DNA from: Acidiphilium sp. PA
Lineage (GTDB): Bacteria > Pseudomonadota > Alphaproteobacteria > Acetobacterales > Acetobacteraceae
DNA: 64,000 nt
Direction: 5' to 3'
Assembly: GCF_026191915.1 (NCBI RefSeq)
Contig: NZ_JAIMBY010000002.1
Span: forward strand, 186,001-250,000
A program made the translations under genes and the position numbers. Below, piece by piece: positions 1,491 to 36,598 of this stretch (the stretch's first letter is position 1; each line of letters starts with the position of its first letter). Below the pieces are notes generated by a model. That model had not been told where the DNA came from. It was given only the letters and a program-made list of their open reading frames with translations, and did not search any database.

Positions 1491-3050
1491 TCAACCTTTA
1501 ACACCATCCAGCGCCGCGCCGCCCTTCGCGGGCCGCCGCAACATGCTCCGCACTTCGGCCACACGAAATGCGCCGATCCCCAGCCCGATCGCGCCGAATC
1601 CGCAAATGCCCAGGCCGATCAGCCCGATCAGCGCGAGGCTACCCGGCAGGTGCATCAGCGGTGTGGCGCGCAGGGCGACCAGCATGATCGCCATCGCCGC
1701 GCTGGCGATCACGATTCGGATGACGCGCCCGACCAGTCGCCGATCCGGCGCGAAGCCGCCGTGCCGGCGCAACAGAATGGCGAGCATCGCGACATTGAAC
1801 CAGGCCGCAATGCTGGTCGACAGCGCGATTCCCACCTGTTGCAACGGGTGCATCAGAATCAGGTTGAGCGCCAGGTTGAGTGCTACGGCGGCAAGGCCGA
1901 TTTTCACAGGGGTTTTCGTATCGCCACGCGCGAAAAAACCCGGCGCGAACAGTTTGACCAGCACGAAGGCGGGCAGACCGAATGCGTAGGCCGCCAGGGC
2001 TGCCGCGCTGCGGGCGGCATCGGCATCGGAAAACGCGCCATGGGCGAACAAGGTGCGCATGATCGGCAGGCCGATCGCCCCGAGTGCGGCAGCACCCGGC
2101 AGGGTCAGCAACAGGGCGAATTCGAACGCCCGATTGAGCGCCCCCTGGGCCTGCAGTGTTTCGTTGCGCCGAAAATGCCGCGACAGGCTGGGCAGCAACA
2201 CGGTGCCGAGCGCCGCACCGATAACGCCGAGCGGCAATTGATTGACCCGGTCGGCGTAGTACAGCACCGAGACGGTGCCGTTCGGCAGCAGTGACGCGAT
2301 GATGGTATCGACCGTCAGATTGAGTTGCGTGACACCCGCACCGATCAACCCCGGCCCGAGGCGGCGCAGCACGATGACTGCTGCCGGCGTCAGGCGCGGC
2401 ATGCGCAGGCGCAGCGGTGTGCCGGCTTTTGCCAGGGCGCGCCCGAGCATCGCAAATTGCACGATGCCCGATATCACCACGCCATAGGCCAGGGCTTCGG
2501 GCACGCGCGTGCCATTGCCATGCAGAATGAACAAGGATGCGATGATCGATACATTGAACAGGATCGGCGCAGCGGACGCCGCGGCGAAATGACCCCGCGC
2601 GTTCAGCACGCCGGCGAACAGCGCACACAGGCAGATCAGCCACAGATAGGGAAAGGTGATGCGCGACAGATGCACCGCCAGTGCGAATTTCGAGGGTTCC
2701 GCGCGAAATCCCGGTGCGAGGGCATCGAGCACCGCCGGCATGAAGATCATGCCCAGCGCCATCAGCACGAACAGAAACACCACCATGATCGCGGTGATCT
2801 CCTCCGCCAGCCGCCGCGCCGGACCCTCGCCCTCGTGGCTCAGCAGCCCGGTGTAGGCGGGGATGAAGGCAGCGCTGAACGCGCCTTCACCGAACAGTCG
2901 CCGAAACAGATTGGGCAGCCGCAGGGCCACGAAAAACGCATCCGCGGCGGGCCCCGCGCCGAGCAGCGCCGCGATCAGGATGTCGCGTGCGAAGCCGAGC
3001 ACGCGGCTGCCCAGCGTCCAGGCGCCGACCGTAAGGGCGTTTCTGATCAT
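1491..3050 (-). CDS. murJ: Lipid II flippase MurJ (MviN family)
   Basis: Polytopic inner-membrane protein of the MOP exporter superfamily that moves lipid II across the membrane for peptidoglycan synthesis. At 519 residues it has the usual length and about 14 predicted membrane spans. Family signatures near the N-terminus include SRVLGFARDILIAALLGAG and RLPNLFRRLFGEGAFS, the latter holding the conserved arginines. The start is preceded within 10 nt by the stop of the CHAP lipoprotein gene, so the two are likely transcribed together. trpS follows downstream. Confidence 0.96.
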   Translation of the reverse strand: MIRNALTVGAWTLGSRVLGFARDILIAALLGAGPAADAFFVALRLPNLFRRLFGEGAFSAAFIPAYTGLLSHEGEGPARRLAEEITAIMVVFLFVLMALGMIFMPAVLDALAPGFRAEPSKFALAVHLSRITFPYLWLICLCALFAGVLNARGHFAAASAAPILFNVSIIASLFILHGNGTRVPEALAYGVVISGIVQFAMLGRALAKAGTPLRLRMPRLTPAAVIVLRRLGPGLIGAGVTQLNLTVDTIIASLLPNGTVSVLYYADRVNQLPLGVIGAALGTVLLPSLSRHFRRNETLQAQGALNRAFEFALLLTLPGAAALGAIGLPIMRTLFAHGAFSDADAARSAAALAAYAFGLPAFVLVKLFAPGFFARGDTKTPVKIGLAAVALNLALNLILMHPLQQVGIALSTSIAAWFNVAMLAILLRRHGGFAPDRRLVGRVIRIVIASAAMAIMLVALRATPLMHLPGSLALIGLIGLGICGFGAIGLGIGAFRVAEVRSMLRRPAKGGAALDGVKG

Positions 3051-3059
3051 TGCAGGCTC

Positions 3060-3572
3060 TTAGCGTGCGGCAAGCGTGGGTTCCAGCCGGGCGATGTTCG
3101 GCGGCGCATGCGGCAGGATGAACCCATCCGCGGGATAATCGGTGATGCCCAACGCCCGCGTCGGCGGATACCACACCCGCACCAGCGTCCAGTCGTTTTG
3201 CCGCGAGACATCGAACACCGGTTGCCCGTGCTCGATCCGCCCCGGCAGCCAGTTTGCCTGGGTCACGGTGATTTCGCGGGGTGCTACAATATGCGTCACC
3301 ACCGCCAGATGCCCTTCATCCATCGAGCCGTGCCGGCGCAGCACCAGCACCGCGCCCACCGCCGGAGCGTGGGTGCGCAGATAGCGGCCGGCGGCCTCTT
3401 GCCACCAGGTCCAGGCATTTCCGGTCAGCGCAATCCCGGAGACCGCGCGGGCGTAGGGCACACAGGACAGCGTGGTGCGCTGCCCATAGGCATCGATGCC
3501 GGTGCGCGGCGGCGACGTGCCGCAGCTGCTGAGGCCCAGCATCATGACGACAATCGCCCTGCCGATTCGCAT
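3060..3572 (-). CDS. CHAP-domain lipoprotein, probable peptidoglycan amidase/endopeptidase
   Basis: A 170-residue protein with a lipoprotein signal (lipobox LSSC, modified Cys at residue 17). After it comes a CHAP-type core. The likely catalytic Cys is residue 37 (LSCVPYAR), the likely catalytic His is residue 88 (DEGHLAVV), and a NAWTWW segment is typical of the fold. CHAP enzymes cleave amide bonds in murein cross-links or stem peptides. The protein is expected to be anchored to a membrane and face the periplasm. It lies 10 nt upstream of murJ, so a wall-related role fits the context. The exact bond cut cannot be told from the sequence. Confidence 0.75.
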   Translation of the reverse strand: MRIGRAIVVMMLGLSSCGTSPPRTGIDAYGQRTTLSCVPYARAVSGIALTGNAWTWWQEAAGRYLRTHAPAVGAVLVLRRHGSMDEGHLAVVTHIVAPREITVTQANWLPGRIEHGQPVFDVSRQNDWTLVRVWYPPTRALGITDYPADGFILPHAPPNIARLEPTLAAR

Positions 3573-3615
3573 GGCTGGATGTTATCAGAGCCCCGGGCCT
3601 GCTAAACAGGATTTT

Positions 3616-4308
3616 ATGGACACGATCTATCGCGGTGACATTGCAACCAAGGCCGGCCGGCGCAACGCATGGCTCGATGCCCTGTTCATCGATCACGCCG
3701 TGCTCCGCCTCGGCTGGACCAATTTCGCCGTGGTGAAGCCAGGGGCGCTGTACCGCTCGAACCACCCGGTGCCGTTTCAGCTGGAAAAATTCACCCGCAC
3801 CGTCGGCCTGCGTACGCTCATCAATCTCCGTGGCGAATGCCGCAACGGTTCGGATGCTTTGTCGCGCGACGCGGCCGGCCGGCTCGGGCTCGATTTCTAC
3901 GACATGGCGCTGGAATCACGCGGTGCGCCGCAGCGGGACAGGATTTTGCGGATCGCCGAAATTTTCCGCACGATGCAGCGCCCCGCACTGGTCCATTGCA
4001 AATCCGGCGCTGATCGTGCCGGGATCGGCTCAGCATTGTTCGTCCTGATCGAGGGCGGCACGGTGGCGGCGGCGCGGGCGCAGCTGAGCTGGCGGTTCGG
4101 CCACATTCGCCAATCCAACACCGGCATTCTCGATGCATTTCTCGACGAATACGAGCGGGCGGGCGAGGGGCGGAAACCGTTTCTCGACTGGGTCGCCGAG
4201 GATTATGACGAGGTCGCCCTGCGGCGCGCCTACGATGCGCGCAACGCCAACGCCCTGCCACGCCGGATCGCCCGCTTCGTCAACGATCGGATCCTGGCGC
4301 GCGAGTGA
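3616..4308 (+). CDS. Tyrosine/dual-specificity phosphatase-like protein
   Basis: The ATG at 3616 gives 230 residues. In-frame codons further upstream overlap the divergent CHAP gene and look non-native. The active-site P-loop HCKSGADRAG (residues 127-136; Cys128, Arg134) is the HCX5R signature of cysteine-based phosphatases. An upstream LRTLINLRGE block matches the family that includes bacterial DSP-like proteins. A following NTGILDAFLDEYE helix and a charged tail complete it. The substrate is unknown. Similar proteins in alphaproteobacteria are annotated as putative tyrosine phosphatases acting on phosphoproteins or phosphoinositide-like lipids. It is divergent from the CHAP lipoprotein gene and convergent with the DUF4167 gene 3 nt away. 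Confidence 0.8.
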   Translation: MDTIYRGDIATKAGRRNAWLDALFIDHAVLRLGWTNFAVVKPGALYRSNHPVPFQLEKFTRTVGLRTLINLRGECRNGSDALSRDAAGRLGLDFYDMALESRGAPQRDRILRIAEIFRTMQRPALVHCKSGADRAGIGSALFVLIEGGTVAAARAQLSWRFGHIRQSNTGILDAFLDEYERAGEGRKPFLDWVAEDYDEVALRRAYDARNANALPRRIARFVNDRILARE

Positions 4309-11313: not shown

Positions 11314-13617
11314 TCAGATCGGCAAACCGTGCTCGCGCGCCCAGGCGGTCAATGGCTCGCGCAGCGAGGCGCCCGCCGCGCCGGCGCGGCGCAATTCCCG
11401 CAGCACCGGCCGCATCGCACCCAGATCGGCTGCTGCCAGCAATGCCTTGACGGGCAGGATAGCGGTGCCCGACATCGACAGCGTGTCCACCCCGATGGCG
11501 GCGAACACCAGCGCATCGAGCGGCCGGCCCGCCGCTTCGCCGCAAATCGAAAACCCCACCTCTTCCTCGGCGCAGGCCGCCGCCAGACCTTCGATTAGTT
11601 CGAGCACCGGGGCGGACAGCACATCGTAGCGGCCCGCCAGCTTCGGTGTGCCGCGATCGGCGGCGAATAAAAACTGCATCAGATCATTGGTGCCGAGCGA
11701 TATGAAATCCGCCTCGGCCAGCAAGCCGGGCAACTGGAACAGCAACGCCGGCACCTCGAGCATGGTACCGACCTCGATCTCGGTCGGCTTCTCATCCAGC
11801 TTGGCGGCTTCGGCTTCCAGCAGGTCGCGCGCCGCGCGGAATTCAGCGACCGTCGCCACCATCGGAAACATGATCGACAGCCGATGTCCGGCCGCACCCA
11901 TCAGCAGCGCGCGCAACTGCTTGCGGAGTATGGCCGGCCGATCGAGCCCGACCCGCAGGGAGCGCCACCCCATCGCCGGATTTTCTACCGCGTCATCGGC
12001 TTCGCCCGGCAGCATCTTGTCGGCACCCAGGTCGAGGGTGCGAAACACTACCCGTTGCCCTGCCGCGCGCTCGATCACGCGCCGGTAATCAGCCGCCTGC
12101 GCGGCGACGCCGGGCACGCGCGCGGCGGCAAGAGCCGCAATTTCAGTACGATACAGCCCGATCCCTTCAGCGCCGGTGCGGGCCAGCTGATCGAGTTCGA
12201 ACGCGAGGCCGACATTGAGCATCAGCGTCAGCCGGGTGCCATCCAGCGTGGCGGCCGGGCGGTCGCGATACACGCTCAACTCCGCCGCGCGCGAGGAACG
12301 GGCGGCGAGGGCGCGCTCGTATAAGGCGGTCACTTCCGGGTCCGGTCGCAGGATCAGCGCGCCGGATTCCGCATCGAGCAGCACGGCATCGCCCTGCTGG
12401 GCCGCCTCGGTGGCGCCGGCCTCGACCGCGAGAGCCGGAATATCGAGCGCGCGTGCCAGAATCGCCGCATGGCCGCCGGCGCTTGCCTCCTCGATCGCCA
12501 CCCCCGCGATCCCGCGCCGATGCCAATCGAGCAATTCCGCCGGCCCCAGCCGCCGCACGATTAGGATCATGCCGCTCGCATCATCCGGCTTGGCGGTCCC
12601 GGCGCCGAGCGCGGTCAGCATCCGCTCGATCATGTCCTCGACATCGGCCAACCGCTCACGCAGATACGGATCGGCGATCTTGCGCATGCGCCGCCGCAGT
12701 TCGGACCCGACCTGGTCGACCGCGGCTTCGGCGGTCAACCCGTCGGCGATCGCGCTGCGCACCCGCTCCAGCCAGCCGGTGCCCTGCGAGATCAGCCGAT
12801 ACGCATCGAGCACCTCGCGCGTCGCGTGGCCCTGCGGCAGATGATCCGCCATCAGCGTATCGAGGCTCTGCTCCGCCTCGGTCATTGCCTGTTCGAGCCG
12901 CGCGATCTCGGCTGCCGGATCATCGGCCAGCACATGGCGCGGCCCGGTCGAGCGACCGAACGGCAAGGCGCTGCCCCGCACGATGCCTGGCGCCAGCGGA
13001 TGCCCGGCATACCGGCGCGAGAGGGAATCGCCGAGGCCGGTCGGCGCGATATTACCGGCACCCTGGGCCGACAATATCTCGCCCAGCAGCATGGCGATGG
13101 TCGAAATCGTCTCGACTTCGAACGTATCATACTGGCGCGGCTCGATGTTCTGCACCGCAATCACGCCCAGCGTGCGCCCGGCGCGGCGGATCGGCACCGC
13201 CAGCATCGAGGCGTAGCGATCCTCGCCGGTTTCCGGCCGGTAGGCGAATTCGGGATGATTCTGCGCATCCGGCAGGTTCATCAACTCACCCTTGGCCGCC
13301 GCCAGCCCGATGATGCCTTCACCCACGCGCAACCGCGTTCGTCCGACCGCGCCGATCCGCAGCCCATAGGTCGCGGCTAGTTCCAGCATCTCGCCCGGGC
13401 GGGCGACATAGATCGAGCAGACCTCGACCTCCAATTCGCTCGCGATCAGTTCGACCAGTTCCGCCAGGCTGGAATTGCCGCCGCTGAGCCGTTCGCGCAG
13501 TTTCGCGAACAGCCGTCGCGCCGCCGCGAACGGCTCGGCGCCCGATCCGGGCATGGCAGGATCAGGCGGCGTGGCTTCGAGCATCTGTGCGTGCCACCGG
13601 GGCATGGCGCGCGGCAT
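11314..13617 (-). CDS. ptsP: Phosphoenolpyruvate-protein phosphotransferase PtsP (nitrogen PTS enzyme I)
   Basis: It has the domain order GAF, PEP-utiliser N-domain, phosphohistidine swivel domain, then the PEP-binding TIM barrel. The GAF domain covers ~40-180 (EVEVCSIYVARPGEMLELAA). The swivel His is in EEASAGGHAAILARAL. The barrel carries GIGLYRTEIAALA and TNDLMQFLFAADRG. It moves phosphate from PEP to NPr in the PTS-Ntr system, which senses nitrogen and potassium status. The first in-frame Met gives 767 residues and overlaps the preceding gene by 56 nt. A Met at 13584 or 13554 would shorten or remove this overlap and is equally plausible. No ptsN or npr gene is adjacent. Confidence 0.93.
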   Translation of the reverse strand: MPRAMPRWHAQMLEATPPDPAMPGSGAEPFAAARRLFAKLRERLSGGNSSLAELVELIASELEVEVCSIYVARPGEMLELAATYGLRIGAVGRTRLRVGEGIIGLAAAKGELMNLPDAQNHPEFAYRPETGEDRYASMLAVPIRRAGRTLGVIAVQNIEPRQYDTFEVETISTIAMLLGEILSAQGAGNIAPTGLGDSLSRRYAGHPLAPGIVRGSALPFGRSTGPRHVLADDPAAEIARLEQAMTEAEQSLDTLMADHLPQGHATREVLDAYRLISQGTGWLERVRSAIADGLTAEAAVDQVGSELRRRMRKIADPYLRERLADVEDMIERMLTALGAGTAKPDDASGMILIVRRLGPAELLDWHRRGIAGVAIEEASAGGHAAILARALDIPALAVEAGATEAAQQGDAVLLDAESGALILRPDPEVTALYERALAARSSRAAELSVYRDRPAATLDGTRLTLMLNVGLAFELDQLARTGAEGIGLYRTEIAALAAARVPGVAAQAADYRRVIERAAGQRVVFRTLDLGADKMLPGEADDAVENPAMGWRSLRVGLDRPAILRKQLRALLMGAAGHRLSIMFPMVATVAEFRAARDLLEAEAAKLDEKPTEIEVGTMLEVPALLFQLPGLLAEADFISLGTNDLMQFLFAADRGTPKLAGRYDVLSAPVLELIEGLAAACAEEEVGFSICGEAAGRPLDALVFAAIGVDTLSMSGTAILPVKALLAAADLGAMRPVLRELRRAGAAGASLREPLTAWAREHGLPI

Positions 13618-30380: not shown

Positions 30381-31241
30381 ATGAGCACCACGACCAAGCG
30401 CCGCCCCTCTGTCTTCGCAATCCCCTGGCGCACGCCGGCCGGGCGGTTTTCCTGGCTGAAGCTGATCACGCTGCTGCTCTGCATCGCGCCGACGCCGTTC
30501 ATTCTCTGGCAGTGGCGCACTGATAATCTAGGCAGCCGGCCGGTGCATCACGCCATGCTGGAAACCGGGTTCTGGGCGATCCGTTTCTTGATCCTGTGCC
30601 TCGCGGTCACCCCGGCGCGCGCGCTGTTCGACTGGCCGCGCGTAGTGATGCTGCGGCGCATGCTCGGGCTCGCGGCGGCGTTCTACACGATCGCCCACAT
30701 CGGGCTCTACGCGTGGGACGAGGGGTTCGCGCTCGGCTTCGTGGTCAGCCAGATGCTGACGGTATTCTACCTCATTCTCGGCACGATCGCGACGGTCGGG
30801 TTCATCGCCCTGTCGATCACCTCGACCGATGCGGCGATGGCGCGGATGGGGAAGAAATGGAAAGCGCTGCACCGGCTGATCTATCCGGTCGCGATCCTGT
30901 CGCTCTGGCATTTTTTCCTGACCCAGAAGGTCGAGGTCGGGGTGGCGATGGTGCCGGCCGGGCTGTTCGTGTGGCTGATGCTGTGGCGCGCCAGCGCGCC
31001 GGGGTTTCGCCGCTCGGTGCCGGGCATCGCGATCCTGGCGGTGGCGAGCGTGCTGATCACCGCGCTGGGCGAGGCGCTATGGTACAAGCTCAATTCGGGG
31101 ATCAACCCATGGCTCGTGCTCGACGCCAATTTCAGCACGGCGCGGATCAGCGCGGCGGCATTCGTGGCGATCGATCTCGCGATTCTGATGGGTTTGGTGA
31201 TCGCGCGGCGGGTGCAGAAACGCGCCTCGGCATCACCCTGA
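30381..31241 (+). CDS. MsrQ/YedZ-like haem-binding membrane protein
   Basis: A 286-residue protein with a ferric-reductase-like transmembrane domain of about six spans. Three histidines match the haem ligands of E. coli MsrQ: in YTIAHIGLYAW, LHRLIYP and LWHFFL. MsrQ passes electrons from the quinone pool to the periplasmic sulfoxide reductase MsrP. No msrP-like gene lies beside it. The C-terminus is about 75 residues longer than the E. coli protein and adds two further hydrophobic segments (PGIAILAVASVLITAL and AFVAIDLAILMGLVIA). It lies 36 nt upstream of the hydrogenase-like gene cluster on the same strand, so it may donate or receive electrons for that complex. Confidence 0.85.
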   Translation: MSTTTKRRPSVFAIPWRTPAGRFSWLKLITLLLCIAPTPFILWQWRTDNLGSRPVHHAMLETGFWAIRFLILCLAVTPARALFDWPRVVMLRRMLGLAAAFYTIAHIGLYAWDEGFALGFVVSQMLTVFYLILGTIATVGFIALSITSTDAAMARMGKKWKALHRLIYPVAILSLWHFFLTQKVEVGVAMVPAGLFVWLMLWRASAPGFRRSVPGIAILAVASVLITALGEALWYKLNSGINPWLVLDANFSTARISAAAFVAIDLAILMGLVIARRVQKRASASP

Positions 31242-31277: not shown

Positions 31278-32570
31278 ATGGCCCGATCCCCTGAGCAGTC
31301 ACGCGTCATGGCCGCGATGCCGGCAGCCGTGGCTGGCGGCGTGGCCGGTCTCGCATTCGCCGGTGCGCTCGGCATGGCGGCGGTCGCGCTGTTCGGCGTT
31401 CCGCCGATGCAGGCGGTGCTGCCCTGGCTGGGTGACCCCGGGTTCGATGTGGCGGGTTTCACGGTCGATCCGCTGCGGGCCGGCCTGCTAGCACCCCTGC
31501 TGCTCGCCGCCGCCGCCACCATCACGGCGGCCGGACGGCCCACGCCGGGTTTGTACGCGCTCATAGCAGCCAGTGTGCTCGCGGTATTGGCGCTCGATCC
31601 GGCCGGTTCGCTGTTCTGGGGACTGATCGCGCTGTTGCTCGCATCATGGGGCCGCCAGGGCGGCGCGTTCGCACTCGCCGCGGTCCCATCGGTCCTGCTC
31701 ACGGTGGCGCTGGATGCCCCCGCGCTCGACCCCGTATTCGCGTTGGCTGGCGGCGCCGCTCTGCTCGGTGGTGGCGCATGGGCGGCGCGCGCGAACACGC
31801 TGGCCGGCTTCGCCCGCGCCACGGCGCTGGGGCTCACCGGATTGGCGCTCCTGGCACTCGGCCTTGGCGCCGCACCGGCGGCGGTGGCGGCGATGATCGC
31901 GAACGCGCTGATCACCCCTGTGCTCGGCATCGCCGCCGCGACGCTCACCGAGGCGACCGGCACCAGCGCGCTCGACTGGCTGGGCGGCATTGCGCGCGGA
32001 ATGCCGCGCTTTGCCTTGCTGACGGGTGGCGGCCTCGCCTTCGCCGCCATGTTGCCGCCCGGACCGGGCTTCGTCGCCTTCAGCGCGGCGTGGCGCGCCG
32101 CGATCGGTGCCGGTGCCTGGACCGCCATCATTACGCTGGCGCTGTGGTTCGCCTTGATGGGATTTGCCGTGCTGCGTGCGTTCGCCGCCATCGCCCTCGG
32201 CCGGCCACGCAGCCTGCGCGCCGCGGCGGCCGAGGATGCGGCGCGGCCGGTGCTGGTCGCGCTCACGGCAATGCTGCTCGGTGGCGTGATCGTGGCGCTG
32301 GCCGATCCGGCGCGGCTGGGGGTTGCCCTCGCCATCGCCGCCCTGGCGCTCGCCGCACGGCGGTTTCTGCTGCGGGCCGGTCCGGTCGACGTACCAGCGT
32401 ATGACGATGGTTTCGCCCGCCCGCCGGCGTGGCTGCCGTTCGGCGATCCGGCGACCCAGATCACCGCGACCGGGTTTGCCGGCGGGCTCCGCCTACCGCC
32501 CCGCGCGCAACCCGCCTGGCACTGGATCTGCCGTGCCCTGCACTGGCTCGCCGCGCCGTTCCGGCCATGA
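31278..32570 (+). CDS. Shortened HyfB/NuoL-like antiporter-type membrane subunit
   Basis: A 430-residue, very hydrophobic protein. A family fingerprint lies in its middle: GGIARGMPRFALL then AFAAMLPPGPGFVAF, which corresponds to the GGL-xx-MP...LPPLNGF block of HyfB and NuoL/M. The C-terminus has PAYDDGFARPPAWLPFGD, also like HyfB. It is some 240 residues shorter than E. coli HyfB (672), mostly through loss of N-terminal spans. It contains no lysine at all, although family members use buried lysines for proton transfer. The first 30 residues include likely alternative starts (31278 and 31308). It is the first gene of the hydrogenase-4-like cluster. Confidence 0.75.
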   Translation: MARSPEQSRVMAAMPAAVAGGVAGLAFAGALGMAAVALFGVPPMQAVLPWLGDPGFDVAGFTVDPLRAGLLAPLLLAAAATITAAGRPTPGLYALIAASVLAVLALDPAGSLFWGLIALLLASWGRQGGAFALAAVPSVLLTVALDAPALDPVFALAGGAALLGGGAWAARANTLAGFARATALGLTGLALLALGLGAAPAAVAAMIANALITPVLGIAAATLTEATGTSALDWLGGIARGMPRFALLTGGGLAFAAMLPPGPGFVAFSAAWRAAIGAGAWTAIITLALWFALMGFAVLRAFAAIALGRPRSLRAAAAEDAARPVLVALTAMLLGGVIVALADPARLGVALAIAALALAARRFLLRAGPVDVPAYDDGFARPPAWLPFGDPATQITATGFAGGLRLPPRAQPAWHWICRALHWLAAPFRP

Positions 32571-33907
32571 TGCTGCTGAGCCGCCTGGTCGCCACCTTGA
32601 TCGATGTTGCCACGCTGCTCGGCATGGCCGCGGGACTCGGTCTGCTCACCCCGGTCCTGCGGGCGGTGCACGATGGCGTGGCGCCGCCCCCGTGGCGGCA
32701 GGCCTGGGATGATCTGGTCAAACTCAGCCGTAAACGCCGGCTGCGGCCGGGATTCGCCTCGCCGCTCTATGCCGCCTGGCCGGTCATCGCGGTGAGCGCG
32801 AGCGGTGCCGCCTTGCTGGTGGTGCCCGGTTTTTCCTTCGGTCTGATCACGGCCCCGCTCGCGACCGTGCCGCTGCTGGCCGGACTGCTTGCCCTGGCAC
32901 TCGGCGCGCGCCTGGCCGCGTGGCTCGAATCGGGGGAGGGCGGGCGTGGCGCGGTGGCGGCGGAGGCGGCGCTGCGCGTGGCGATCGGCCTGCTGGTCTG
33001 GCTGCTCGTGCTCGGCGCGTTGGCGGTGCGGGCGGGCAGCGACCGACTCGATGCGATTGGCGGCCTGCTCGCGGCGACACCCGCCAATGCGGCGCTGGTT
33101 CTGCTGGCCGGCATCGCGCTCGCCCTGACATCGGGGTGCCTCGAATGCGGCGACCCGGCCGATTACGCGGGGCCGGAGCGCGCGCTGTTTCGGATCGAGG
33201 CGATGCTGCGCCGCATCGTGTTGCTGTCGATCGTGCTCGCGGTGATCGCGCCCTTGCCGATGGCGGATTCCGGTCTCGCCGCCACCTGGCCGGTCGGGCT
33301 GGCCGCCTGGATCGTCAAGGCCGGTGTGCTGGGCCTCGTGCTGATCTGGCTCGCACCGCGCCGCTTCGCGATCCGGCTCGGCGTCGCGGCGGCGATCGGC
33401 TGCCTCGCGGTGATGCTCGCGCAGACGGTTGCGGTGGCCACGCTGTTGATCTGGGGCGGTGGCGTGCTGGTTCTGGCTGGTCTGATCGGGCTGCTCCGGC
33501 GCGGCGCGGTACAGGAGACGGCAGGGTGCGTGCAACTCGGCGTCGCATCGATCGGCTTTGGTCTGGGCGCAACCGACGGCGCGCTGCTGATCCTGGCGAC
33601 CATCGCGCTCGCGCGCCTCGCCGGCGGCACGTTCGCATCCACCGGCCTGATCGCGCTGCTCCCCTTGCCGCCGTTCGGCGCCTTCACCGGCGATGCCGCC
33701 GTGCTGCGCGGCGCTTTCCGCCTCGATGTCTGGCTGGGCGGGGCGGTGCTGGCGGCGGTCGTGCTGACCGCGGCGATCGCACTGGCCCGCCAGCCGCCGG
33801 CGCGGTTCGTCATGCCGCCGGCGCGCCGCGCGCTGCCCGCTGCCCTGCTGTTGCTCGCCGCCGCCGCGCTGGGGCTGCTGCCCTGGCTGATCGCGCTGCC
33901 CGCATGA
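32567..33907 (+). CDS. Fused NuoH/HyfC-like and NuoL/M (HyfF)-like membrane subunit
   Basis: Start at 32567 (ATGA overlap with the previous stop) gives 446 residues with about 12 spans. Residues 1-~285 match HyfC/NuoH in layout: LLTPVLRAV near the N-terminus, then a basic cytoplasmic loop with WDDLVKLSRKRRLRPG, and CLECGDPADYAGPERAL where HyfC has its acidic quinone-side loop. WIVKAGVLGLVLIWLAPRRFAIR is the terminal NuoH span. Residues ~300-446 contain a LPLPPFGAFTGDAAVL motif, like the NuoL/M and HyfF PPFG block. This suggests a fusion of two subunits. In the second half lysine is absent. Domain borders are estimates from visible motifs. Confidence 0.7.
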   Translation: MMLLSRLVATLIDVATLLGMAAGLGLLTPVLRAVHDGVAPPPWRQAWDDLVKLSRKRRLRPGFASPLYAAWPVIAVSASGAALLVVPGFSFGLITAPLATVPLLAGLLALALGARLAAWLESGEGGRGAVAAEAALRVAIGLLVWLLVLGALAVRAGSDRLDAIGGLLAATPANAALVLLAGIALALTSGCLECGDPADYAGPERALFRIEAMLRRIVLLSIVLAVIAPLPMADSGLAATWPVGLAAWIVKAGVLGLVLIWLAPRRFAIRLGVAAAIGCLAVMLAQTVAVATLLIWGGGVLVLAGLIGLLRRGAVQETAGCVQLGVASIGFGLGATDGALLILATIALARLAGGTFASTGLIALLPLPPFGAFTGDAAVLRGAFRLDVWLGGAVLAAVVLTAAIALARQPPARFVMPPARRALPAALLLLAAAALGLLPWLIALPA

Positions 33908-35196
33908 ACGCCGCACTTGATGCCGCGATCGCGTCTGCCGCGCCGCCGGGTGCGATCGTGATGCTGGATGCCGCCACTTGGCGCAGCCTCGCGGCCGGCG
34001 ATCCCGGGTTGGGGTTTCGCGGTCTGTTCGTTTCGGGCGGGCGCGTGCATGCGCTGTTCACCAATGGATCGGCACCGCTGCTGCTGGCGACCGACCTGAT
34101 CGCCAACGCCTATCCTTCGATCGCTGCGGGATTTCCGCAGGCCGCGTGGTTCGAACGGCTCGCGTTCGATCAGACCGGTGCCGTGGCTGAAGGTGCCACC
34201 GATCACCGCCCGGCGATCGCGCAAGGCGCCGCCGGCACCGATTCCGCCTGGCCGCGCTTCATCGAAACCGCGGGTGAGGGCGGGTATCAGATCGGCGCGG
34301 GCCCGGTTGCCGGGCGGATCGCAAGCCCGGTGCACCGACGTTTCAGTTTGGGGCGTTTTAGCATGGACGGCACGCGGATCCTCCGCCTGGAGCACCGCCT
34401 CGGCTACGCCCATCGCGGCATCGGGGGGCTGATGCGTGGCAAGTCGCCCCGAGTGGCCGCACGCTTCGCCGCCCGCATCGCCGGCGATGCGACGGTGGCG
34501 CACGCGGTGGCGTTCGCCCGCGCGGCGGAGGCGGCGAGCGATGCCGCGGCCCCGCCGCGGGCGGTGGCGCTGCGGACCATCATGATCGCGATCGAGCGGA
34601 TGACCGCCGATCTGGCCGCGCTGGCGGCGGCGGTGGCGGCGGCCGGCGATGCGCGGTTCGCGACGTTGCTCGGTCAGGCACGGGAACAGTGCGCCGTGGC
34701 GCTGGGCGACGCGTTCGGCCATCGGCTGATGATGGATATCGTCGTGCCCGGCGGTCTCGCGCTCGATCTGCGTGGCGATGGTGTTGCCGCCCTGCTCGCT
34801 GCGGTGGACCGTGCCGTGTTGGTGGTGCGGGCGTTCGCCTGGGGGCGGGTGCGGCGCGACCTGGGGCCGGCCGCCGCGATCGCGCAGGCGCGGGCACGCG
34901 CGATCCGTGCGCTCGCTGCATCGGTGCGTGCCGACCTCGCGGCGGTGCCTGAGGGCATCATCGCCGCGGCGCTGCCCGCCGGCACCGGCACGGCGCTGGG
35001 TGAGGCCGAAAGCGCGCGCGGCATGGTGTATCACTGGATCGACCTGCTCGACGGGCAGATCCGCGATTGTATCGCGATCGACCCTTCGGCACGGCTGCTG
35101 CCGGTGCTCGAAGGCGCCGTGGTCGGGCTCGATCCCAGGGCGGCGGCCGTGCTGATCGCGTGTTATGGCTTGTCAGTGGGGGCGATCGATGGATGA
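33904..35196 (+). CDS. Large (HyfG/NuoCD-like) subunit lacking most NiFe ligands
   Basis: Start at 33904 is the only one compatible with an ATGA junction and gives 430 residues. The fold is recognised by residues 130-180: GPVAGRIASPVHRRF, LRLEHRLGYAHRGI. At 191-200 the sequence is RIAGDATVAH where active hydrogenases read RVCGICGFAH, so both N-terminal cysteines are alanine. At 419-423 the sequence is ACYGL where active enzymes have DPCYSC, so one cysteine (420) remains and its partner is Leu423. It therefore cannot hold a standard NiFe centre. It is homologous to NuoD and to Ehr-type proteins. The reaction is unknown. Confidence 0.78.
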   Translation: MNAALDAAIASAAPPGAIVMLDAATWRSLAAGDPGLGFRGLFVSGGRVHALFTNGSAPLLLATDLIANAYPSIAAGFPQAAWFERLAFDQTGAVAEGATDHRPAIAQGAAGTDSAWPRFIETAGEGGYQIGAGPVAGRIASPVHRRFSLGRFSMDGTRILRLEHRLGYAHRGIGGLMRGKSPRVAARFAARIAGDATVAHAVAFARAAEAASDAAAPPRAVALRTIMIAIERMTADLAALAAAVAAAGDARFATLLGQAREQCAVALGDAFGHRLMMDIVVPGGLALDLRGDGVAALLAAVDRAVLVVRAFAWGRVRRDLGPAAAIAQARARAIRALAASVRADLAAVPEGIIAAALPAGTGTALGEAESARGMVYHWIDLLDGQIRDCIAIDPSARLLPVLEGAVVGLDPRAAAVLIACYGLSVGAIDG

Positions 35197-35692
35197 AGCG
35201 GCAGTGAGTTCACTGGCGGCACGCCTCGCGGATGCCGGCATCACAAGGCTGGGCCGCAGCCTTGCGGTGCGCCATGTCGATGCCGGCAGTTGCGGCGGGT
35301 GCGAAATTTCGCTGGCGGGTGCCGCGGCGCTGCGGGCCGGGCTGATCCGCTACGGCATCACGCTGGTCGATGATCCACGCGCGGCGGATGTGCTGCTGAT
35401 CACTGGCGTCGTCACCACCACGATGTCCGATGCGGTGACCCGCACACTGGCTGCGATGGCGCCGCCGCGCTTCGTGGTCGCGGTGGGGGATTGCGCGGTC
35501 GATGGCGGCGTCTTCAAGGGCGCGCCGACCGTGCTGGGCGGTGCGGAACGGATCGTGCCGGTCGATTTGCTGATCGCCGGTTGCCCGCCTTCGCCGGGCC
35601 GCATCATCGCCGGTCTCGTGGCTTTGCTCGAGGCCAATGCCGCGCCGGTTGCCGGTTCGCGCCGCTCATCGCGGATCGAGCCGCATGCCTGA
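35189..35692 (+). CDS. Small (HyfI/NuoB-like) iron-sulfur subunit
   Basis: Start at 35189 overlaps the large-subunit gene by 8 nt, with a GTGGGGG ribosome site. The 167-residue protein keeps all four cysteines for the 4Fe-4S cluster nearest the active site: Cys35 and Cys38 in GSCGGCEIS, Cys102 in GDCAVDGG and Cys132 in AGCPPSPGR. This is the NuoB/HycG family pattern. It would lie at the base of an electron path toward the altered large subunit. No separate ferredoxin-like subunit (HyfA/HycB) gene is found nearby, so the electron donor or acceptor is unclear. Confidence 0.9.
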
Positions 35693-36296
35693 TTTCAGCT
35701 ATGAGCGGCGCTGCGGCGGGATCGTGGCAGGGGTGGACGAGGTCGGCCGCGGACCGCTGGCCGGCCCGGTGCTGGCGGCCGCGGCAATCCTGCCGCTCGA
35801 TATCGACGCGACGATCATGCGGCTGATCGATGATTCCAAACGATTATCGGCCGCGCGGCGGGCCGTGGCGCTGGCCGCGCTGATCGACTGCGGCGCCGTG
35901 ATCGCGCTGGGCGCCGCCTCCGTTGCCGAGATTGCGCGGCTGAATATTCTGCAGGCGAGCCTACTCGCGATGCGCCGGGCGGTTGCCCGCCTGACGGTGC
36001 GGCCCGACCACGTGCTGGTCGATGGCAACATGGTACCGTCACTGCCGATGAATTGTTCGGCGCTGGTCGGTGGTGATGGTATTTCACTCTCGATCGCCGC
36101 GGCTTCGATCGCGGCAAAACTCGCGCGCGATCAGCTGATGGTGCGGCTCGATCGGCGCTATCCGGGTTATGGCTGGGCGCAAAACGCCGGCTATGGCACG
36201 CAGGTCCATCGTGCCGCCATCGTGTCACGCGGTATCACGGCACATCACCGTTGCGGGTTCGGCCCGCTGCTGCGTGATATCGCAAGGCCGGTTTAG
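35685..36296 (+). CDS. rnhB: Ribonuclease HII
   Basis: Cleaves RNA in RNA-DNA hybrids and excises single ribonucleotides from DNA. Start at 35685 (MPDFSYERR) gives 203 residues. The catalytic motif is [14 protein letters not shown] (Asp18 and Glu19), with DDSKRLSA and [16 protein letters not shown] in the usual places. The start overlaps the small-subunit gene by 8 nt, so it is probably translated from the same message. It converges with the small gene downstream, and the stop codons overlap by two bases. Confidence 0.95.
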
Positions 36297-36598
36297 GCGT
36301 ATTTCTGCTCGGGATGCCGCAGGTGCCAAAGCCGTTCATGCGCGGCCACCAGGCTCTCGATGCTCTTACGCCGGTTCGCATCGCTGTTAGGGCTGCGGCG
36401 CGTCAGCATGTGCTCGAGAATGACCAGCAACTGCTCGGCGATTTCGTAATCGTCCTGATCGCATGCATGATGAAACGCGATCAATATTTTATCGGACAGG
36501 CGCCGGCTATACCGTGACTGGGTTTTATCAGCCTTCACGACATCGTCGGCAAACTGGTCGATGGTATCCTCATCTGTCACTGCGGGCATTCCGATCAA
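36293..36598 (-). CDS. Small conserved-type hypothetical protein
   Basis: A 101-residue soluble, charged protein rich in helix formers. [20 protein letters not shown] and [11 protein letters not shown] suggest two or three alpha helices with a repeated heptad-like spacing. No catalytic motif is visible and the family is not recognised. It appears real: the start is followed by a coding-like composition and its stop exactly meets that of rnhB (overlap TTTAG). The 279-bp region upstream is A/T-rich and should hold its promoter. Confidence 0.6.

Follow-up and report, generated by a model that had tools for sequence, protein, structure and literature searches.

A reduced four-subunit Ehr-type complex, probably non-pumping, encoded by overlapping genes in Acidiphilium sp. 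PA

Four overlapping genes, named B', CF', G' and I', lie in a 64,000-nucleotide stretch of the genome of Acidiphilium sp. PA (contig NZ_JAIMBY010000002.1, positions 186,001 to 250,000; the window, below, is this whole stretch). With about an even chance of being right in our judgement, they encode a reduced four-subunit complex of the Ehr type, in which G' and I' would be held at the membrane and exchange electrons at an emptied NiFe pocket, uncoupled from ion pumping. Judged from sequence comparison, this would probably be a membrane-anchored, non-pumping electron-transfer module with one [4Fe-4S] cluster facing the emptied pocket. According to the accessible text of PMC6349859 and PMC10284858, Ehr complexes lack NiFe-binding residues and their function is not known, and the former describes Mrp antiporter-like membrane subunits with suspected ion translocation. 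Searches of the open-access literature yielded no account of a reduced Ehr from Acidiphilium or the Acetobacteraceae.

The features of the locus are collected in Table 1. The four genes overlap successively on the forward strand and together occupy 31278-35692; for I', translation more likely begins at an internal ATG (35189; 167 aa) that overlaps the stop of G'. An earlier note, made from the letters of the window, had described four overlapping genes with HyfB-, HyfG- and HyfI-like subunits, and the unbroken frames and profile matches bear this out. The frames of B', C(F)', G' and I' are open in all ten genus loci that are not cut, the window included, which rules out a frameshift or misassembly. 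The host genome measures 4.54 Mb with a completeness rating of 100%, and the locus is on its contig C12. In the sets of open reading frames (ORFs), ambiguous residues (X, from N bases) were replaced by A.

Table 1. Features of the reduced Ehr-type locus and its neighbours (positions in the window)
Feature	Position	Strand	Evidence
B' (430 aa), truncated HyfB/HycC-like membrane subunit	31278..32570	+	hhalign and fold match
CF' (446 aa), HyfC/HycD/NuoH-like anchor fused to a HyfF remnant	32567..33907	+	hhalign and fold match
HyfC-like part of CF', residues 1-262	32567..33352	+	hhalign 99.4, E 1.3e-21
HyfF C-terminal remnant of CF', residues 291-446	33437..33904	+	hhalign 97.2, E 3.8e-11
G' (430 aa), HycE/HyfG-like large subunit without NiFe ligands	33904..35196	+	487 bits, Ehr profile
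I', HycG/HyfI/NuoB-like small subunit, 175-aa ORF	35165..35692	+	PF01058, 97 bits
Former first NiFe motif of G', A193-G-D-A196 replacing CxxC	34480..34491	+	alignment to E. coli HycE
Former second NiFe motif of G', S424 to A427 replacing CxxC	35173..35184	+	alignment to E. coli HycE
Cluster cysteines of I', C43, C46, C110, C140		+	alignment with MbhJ and HycG
Loop-1/ND3-like segment of B', residues 373-407, with the RPRSLRAAAAED loop; best-conserved stretch of B'	32394..32498	+	
MsrQ/ferric-reductase-like haem-binding membrane protein	30381..31241	+	PF01794, 48 bits; 36 bp upstream of B'
rnhB (ribonuclease HII)	35637..36296	+	PF01351, 131 bits; ORF overlaps the end of I'

G' and I' score 487 and 232 bits against profiles made from Ehr loci, to which the window may itself have contributed, and their homology is therefore well above chance. 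For these profiles, as for the 89-row tree, the cysteine counts and the size classes given below, loci shorter than 8.5 kb were excluded, except L158, L159 and L161. The relatives form a non-random sample, namely the best 80 of at least 322 confirmed matches to the queries together with hand-picked places. The nearest solved structure to G' alone is HycE of E. coli formate hydrogenlyase (7z0s_E, E 6.6e-11), and as a profile with 16 relatives it matches HycE (E 1.4e-57) ahead of MbhL (5.8e-45) and Nqo4 (6.5e-36). Among the matches listed, the large subunit of L054 (Acidiphilium sp. STC_13) is 68% identical to G'. For I', the match to PF01058 is accompanied by MbhJ as the nearest solved structure and HycG as the second.

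A Pfam scan of B' and CF' gave no antiporter and no NuoH match. B' weakly matches antiporter-type subunits in NCBIfam (best E 8e-5), and its residues 153-407 align with HyfB 279-597 (hhalign 99.5, E 1.1e-22), with 152 residues preceding the matched part. CF' matches full-size HyfC over residues 1-262 and, from residue 291 onward and together with its relatives, HyfF 274-465 (Table 1), against a value of only 29.4 for HyfB; all these hhalign E-values are single-comparison values from alignments of 9-11 sequences. Because the window's CF' was missed by the HyfF profile in a plain hidden Markov model search, the HyfF identity of this C-terminal part rests on the aligned relatives. The models of B' and CF' have predicted local distance difference test (pLDDT) scores of 76.6 and 66.8, with 7z0t_C and 7z0t_D as best PDB fold matches, which from their chain letters we take to be HycC and HycD of E. 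coli formate hydrogenlyase. Genome G202 (L160) has separate genes for the C part and for a longer protein of 341 aa, so that CF' is best read as a fusion with loss; this unfused protein reaches a single-sequence hhalign value of only 15.7% against HyfF. Of the fused NuoH/NuoL-like subunit claimed in the earlier note, the fusion thus stands, but the second part is the end of HyfF and not a whole NuoL.

All four NiFe ligand positions of G' are occupied by other residues than cysteine when aligned to E. coli HycE (A193, A196, S424 and A427). The earlier note was right about the loss and had put it at three of four cysteines; the remaining nearby cysteine, C420, is outside the ligand positions, so that all four are gone. 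Among 88 large subunits, the window included and one row being without its C-terminal end, none keeps at least two of the four cysteines and two keep one. Together with the absence of any broken gene, this goes against what would have refuted the earlier note. Since the full-size relatives also lack these cysteines, the loss is not peculiar to the window locus. Its distinctive feature is the dismantled membrane arm. The quinone residues H38 and Y87 of complex I subunit Nqo4, as given in the accessible text of PMC7684303, align with A140 and G194 of G'. At the former CGIC site the 88 sequences share a family signature of H170 (87 sequences), G194 (78), D195 (73) and D429 (85). A putative canopy arginine, placed by chain numbering, is retained in the window (R372) and not in G196. 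As a separate observation, the five-residue unit GRFSM is repeated at 34342-34365, just after the beta1-beta2 region of G', with one extra unit in the window, three in the large subunit of L035 (G096) and none in G153 and G196, which has the appearance of a recent in-frame expansion near the pocket.

The small subunit was correctly noted earlier to keep its 4Fe-4S cysteines, C43, C46, C110 and C140, and all four are present in 85 of 86 small subunits, the window included. The CxxC region of I' aligns gap-free with MbhJ and HycG and carries a CGGC motif with C-x2-C spacing, so that by sequence I' retains a hydrogenase-type four-cysteine [4Fe-4S] site. According to the accessible text of PMC7684303, the proximal cluster motif of the sulfane sulfur reductase MBS is three residues shorter than in MBH; a three-cysteine cluster of this type is not supported, given the gap-free alignment of I' with MbhJ. 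Elsewhere in the sample, the small subunit near 8084-8704 of L048 (G100:C1:2676000-2691000) has lost three of the four cluster cysteines and its operon remains, making L048 a possible Ehr without an Fe-S cluster.

In the membrane arm, the antiporter domain PF00361 is listed in none of ten B' and none of nine CF' proteins; the full-size HyfB and HyfF of the same genome score 171 and 181 bits. HyfE was not found at the window locus and most of HyfF is likewise gone. The accessible text of the formate hydrogenlyase structure paper (PMC9474812) lists the proton-path residues of HycC and HycD, and their equivalents in HyfB and HyfC were assigned by motif and spacing. HyfB E144, K224, H231, H238 and K255, which include the glutamate of transmembrane helix (TMH) 5, the lysine of TMH7, the following histidine and the next lysine, precede the part matched by B' (152 residues in B' versus 278 in HyfB). 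In TMH11, H345 and H349 are deleted and K353 is replaced by T, and E408 of TMH12 is replaced by S. In CF', HyfC R112, E134 and E142 are changed to L, A and L, respectively, and the 14 residues 204-217 of the TMH5-6/ND1 loop are deleted.

Nine charged residues of B' (R3, D233, R240, R309, R311, R314, E319, D320 and D390) are kept in at least nine of ten sequences, and all of them map to loops, helix termini or the short helix 232-241; not one is buried deep within a predicted membrane helix. The ND3-type Loop 1 of B' has many positions that are invariant or near-invariant among the ten sequences and aligns with the HyfB stretch holding Cys569, with D377 at that position. Also conserved are DWLGGxARGMP and GRPRSLRAAAAED in B' and an RKRR segment in CF', so the conserved part of the membrane arm is its interface. 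In the loop terms of PMC7684303, as far as its accessible text defines them, Loop 1 is retained, Loop 2 altered and Loop 3 deleted. By sequence, B' and CF' retain the docking parts of the membrane arm and have lost the recognisable proton path. The loss of the known channel residues and the deletion of Loop 3 suggest that the complex is probably non-pumping.

Of 200 genomes of the family, 184 contain a relative of G', a count that takes in other Ehr and complex I proteins as well. All 13 genus genomes carry the reduced locus, complete or in part (in G200 as a contig-end fragment only), with the C-F fusion in nine of the ten genus loci where the site is visible. A full-size six-gene Ehr, also without NiFe cysteines, is found elsewhere in 12 of the 13 genomes (the count for G207 rests on record L121, taken as the same locus); in the thirteenth, G204, it is seen in part, as a contig end interrupts it. 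The host genome's own copy, L034 (G000:C1), lies on a different contig from the window locus. With this full-size Ehr for comparison, the earlier idea of a reduced, catalytically altered relative of group 4 [NiFe] hydrogenases and complex I, smaller than related Ehr through subunit loss and fusion, proves well founded: HyfE, most of HyfF and part of HyfB are lost, and the HyfF remnant is fused to HyfC. In one of the 12, G202 (L163, G202:C75), the HyfB gene of this full-size Ehr is divided between two overlapping reading frames (2028-3987), which reflects either a true interruption or an error in sequencing.

The reduced large subunits form one clade in the 89-row tree with a Shimodaira-Hasegawa-like approximate likelihood ratio test (SH-aLRT) support of 100. 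A recent duplication of the genus's full-size Ehr was rejected by the approximately unbiased (AU) test (p-AU 4e-5; one-clade constraint on the large subunits, 30 rows). Loci presumed to be copies of contigs already included were omitted from the tree and the cysteine counts, as were L057 and L067, although their partners L010 and L017 were too short for the set; L121 was omitted from the cysteine counts only. By our thresholds, 58 of the 89 Ehr loci, the window included, are full-size, eight have no C gene in the stretch fetched, and in the other 23 E and F are reduced or degenerate to varying degrees. L039 and L040, from other genera, have clusters about as small as that of the window, and these are unfused. 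Together with L038, which is interrupted before its C gene, they represent an Acetobacteraceae lineage (G165, G020 and G111 for L038-L040) whose large subunit is without the GPV...H beta-hairpin region; this lineage stands apart from the genus clade in the 89-row tree and beside it, at a support of 41, in the 30-row tree. A third, distant six-subunit Ehr type occurs in some genus genomes (L172, G196:C124; L173, G201:C6), with HyfB last in the gene order and a large subunit without CxxC.

For the closest pair, the window and G096, the ratios of nonsynonymous to synonymous substitution rates (dN/dS, Nei-Gojobori) are 0.10 for I', 0.16 for G', 0.19 for B' and 0.28 for CF', with 0.12 for IleS and 0.18 for RnhB; MsrQ was omitted from this pair owing to an in-frame stop in the aligned stretch. 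In each distant pair, pN/pS is higher for B' and CF' than for any other gene tested; these values are only rough because synonymous change is near saturation. Taken together, the locus appears to be under purifying selection, relaxed for the membrane parts.

The MsrQ-like gene upstream of B' scores 117 bits against the NCBIfam MsrQ model (cut-off 130) and precedes the locus in seven of ten genus loci with a visible upstream region, the window included; it is a possible operon partner of the complex in part of the genus only. As candidates for an MsrP partner, seven PF00174 matches are present in the genome, none of them on contig C12. In L035 (G096), the MsrQ-like gene (11651-12508) carries an in-frame stop among the final residues of the alignment and ends slightly earlier, at 284 aa versus 286 aa in the window. 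On the other side, rnhB adjoins I' in all 13 genus loci, the window included, and is a constant neighbour outside the complex. Beyond these genes, ileS and lspA flank the locus at one end; at the other are nrdB and the gene for a 101-aa protein (36293-36598, reverse strand), which has no Pfam match and lies near rnhB in all 12 other reduced genus loci examined.

The absence of hyp genes nearby, as noted earlier, extends to the whole host genome for the only two Hyp families searched, HypD (PF01924) and the HypF zinc finger (PF07503), each of which matches four of 14 control genomes, E. coli among them. In agreement with the reported absence of ferredoxin and formate dehydrogenase genes nearby, contig C12 has no match to the molybdopterin-oxidoreductase family PF00384 or to the Fer4_7 ferredoxin family PF12838, other ferredoxin families not having been searched. 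Two NuoD-type genes are present in the host genome (G000:C45 and G000:C23), one of them in a 673-aa NuoCD-like frame, which suggests two complexes I. This agrees with the two complete complexes I of Acidiphilium cryptum mentioned in the accessible text of PMC12361115.

Selection preserves a locus without NiFe ligands, which therefore probably serves another electron-transfer job. In the reading that we prefer, B' and CF' would anchor the G'-I' pair to the inner membrane, and the single cluster of I' would give electrons to, or take them from, a small hydrophobic molecule in the former NiFe pocket, perhaps a quinone and possibly a sulfur compound. The walls of this pocket would be formed by G', the C-like half of CF' and the conserved Loop 1 of B'. 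With no coupling loop (ND1/Loop 3), no HyfE and no antiporter cores left, the redox reaction would be uncoupled from ion pumping, and the reduced complex would be kept alongside, and distinct from, the full-size Ehr of the same cell. Several observations weigh against this proposal. The canopy residues are partly lost (HycE Asp529, the hydrogenase canopy aspartate according to the accessible text of PMC9474812, aligns with G422 of G'), so that the pocket may be inert, and the family signature varies within the clade, D195 being G in G196. Loop 1 of B' is modelled without confidence (residues 368-395, pLDDT <50), and CF' as a whole is modelled at only 66.8. The membrane subunits evolve fast, with a rough pN/pS of up to 0.89 for CF' in distant pairs, as is expected of slow decay too. 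An ion path of another kind may be compatible with the loss of the known residues. Finally, no redox partner is conserved across the genus loci: the MsrQ-like neighbour was not found within 4.4-5.9 kb upstream in three of ten testable genus loci (L156, L157 and L160), which weakens the reading of this gene as an obligate partner.

One alternative, somewhat unlikely in our view, is that the locus is a relic with no redox role left, decaying slowly under weak or residual constraint. The loss of HyfE, most of HyfF and part of HyfB, the graded reduction among other Acetobacteraceae and the evolution of B' and CF', faster than that of the other genes tested in each distant pair, would all be consistent with this. 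However, not one gene is broken in the ten uncut genus loci, at distances where IleS is 81-83% identical, and the four subunits and the four cluster cysteines are retained together with dN/dS values of 0.10-0.28 in the close pair. Co-occurrence of the reduced and full-size kinds in all 13 genus genomes (six subunits in 12 of them, cut by a contig end in one) raises a rather improbable alternative, a non-redox or regulatory role in which G'-I' or B'-CF' would associate with subunits of the full-size Ehr, take their place or regulate them; against it, the copies are not recent duplicates by the 30-row test above (p-AU 4e-5), and in the window's genome the two loci are on different contigs.

There is a small chance that the complex is an Ehr that still translocates ions, by a path unlike those of HycC/HycD and complex I, as two multi-helix membrane subunits are retained and K251 and D376 are invariant in nine of nine CF' proteins; the known channel residues are, however, lost from both subunits, and neither HyfE nor PF00361 was found. 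An active [NiFe] hydrogenase with unusual ligands or with cysteines elsewhere has hardly any probability, despite the overall kinship and HycE as the nearest solved structure: none of the four ligand positions is a cysteine, and neither HypD nor the HypF zinc finger has a match in the genome, so that displaced cysteines were rejected as an explanation.

It has long been asked how complex I and its relatives couple redox chemistry to ion pumping at a distance. A genus with a full-size and a stripped Ehr, taken with related lineages whose forms are reduced to a lesser degree or in another way, amounts to a deletion series made by nature, from which it can be read what the soluble arm requires and what it can do without. 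The locus is also a test case for whether an Ehr does something useful without pumping. For annotation, the labels 'hydrogenase 4' and 'formate hydrogenlyase' on such genes should not be taken to imply hydrogen metabolism.

Compared with known systems, the locus shares with Ehr complexes large and small subunits homologous to those of group 4 [NiFe] hydrogenases and the loss of the NiFe-coordinating residues, with none of the four cysteines in the window. In place of antiporter-like subunits it has B' and CF', which derive from them but in which PF00361 is undetected and the channel residues are lost; the window complex is therefore a reduced Ehr derivative rather than a standard member. The full-size alphaproteobacterial Ehr/Hyf-like locus (HyfB-C-E-F-G-I, L034) has the same B-C-...-G-I order, a large subunit without NiFe ligands and a four-cysteine small subunit, whereas the window lacks HyfE and part of HyfB, has only the end of HyfF, fused to HyfC, and has a large subunit of 430 aa versus 467 aa. 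E. coli formate hydrogenlyase 1 (FHL-1; HycC, D, E and G) likewise has two membrane genes only and provides the best solved matches for B' and CF' (by fold) and G' (by sequence), with HycG second to MbhJ for I'. Unlike FHL-1, the window system has no NiFe ligands, no HypD and no PF00384 or Fer4_7 match on its contig, its ND1 loop is deleted and the HycC-type proton-path residues are lost. The two CxxC motifs of group 4 [NiFe] hydrogenases are absent, and of the Hyp genes the two covered, HypD and the HypF zinc finger, have no match in the genome.

According to the accessible text of PMC7684303, MBS of Pyrococcus is a sulfane sulfur reductase, an example of enzyme activity in a member that has no NiFe. 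It resembles the window complex in the lost NiFe site, the absence of H38 and Y87 and a proximal cluster facing the emptied pocket, a pocket that is inferred for the window. The same text describes a three-cysteine proximal cluster, further Fe-S clusters (MbsN) and ion pumping for MBS, whereas the window has a full-length four-cysteine motif in I' and no second Fe-S gene in the cluster. Relative to the quinone module of complex I (NuoB, D and H), the small subunit has C-x2-C and not the tandem CC of the N2 motif, and G' has A140 and G194 in place of the quinone ligands H38 and Y87; common ancestry and the loss of the NiFe ligands are what the two have in common.

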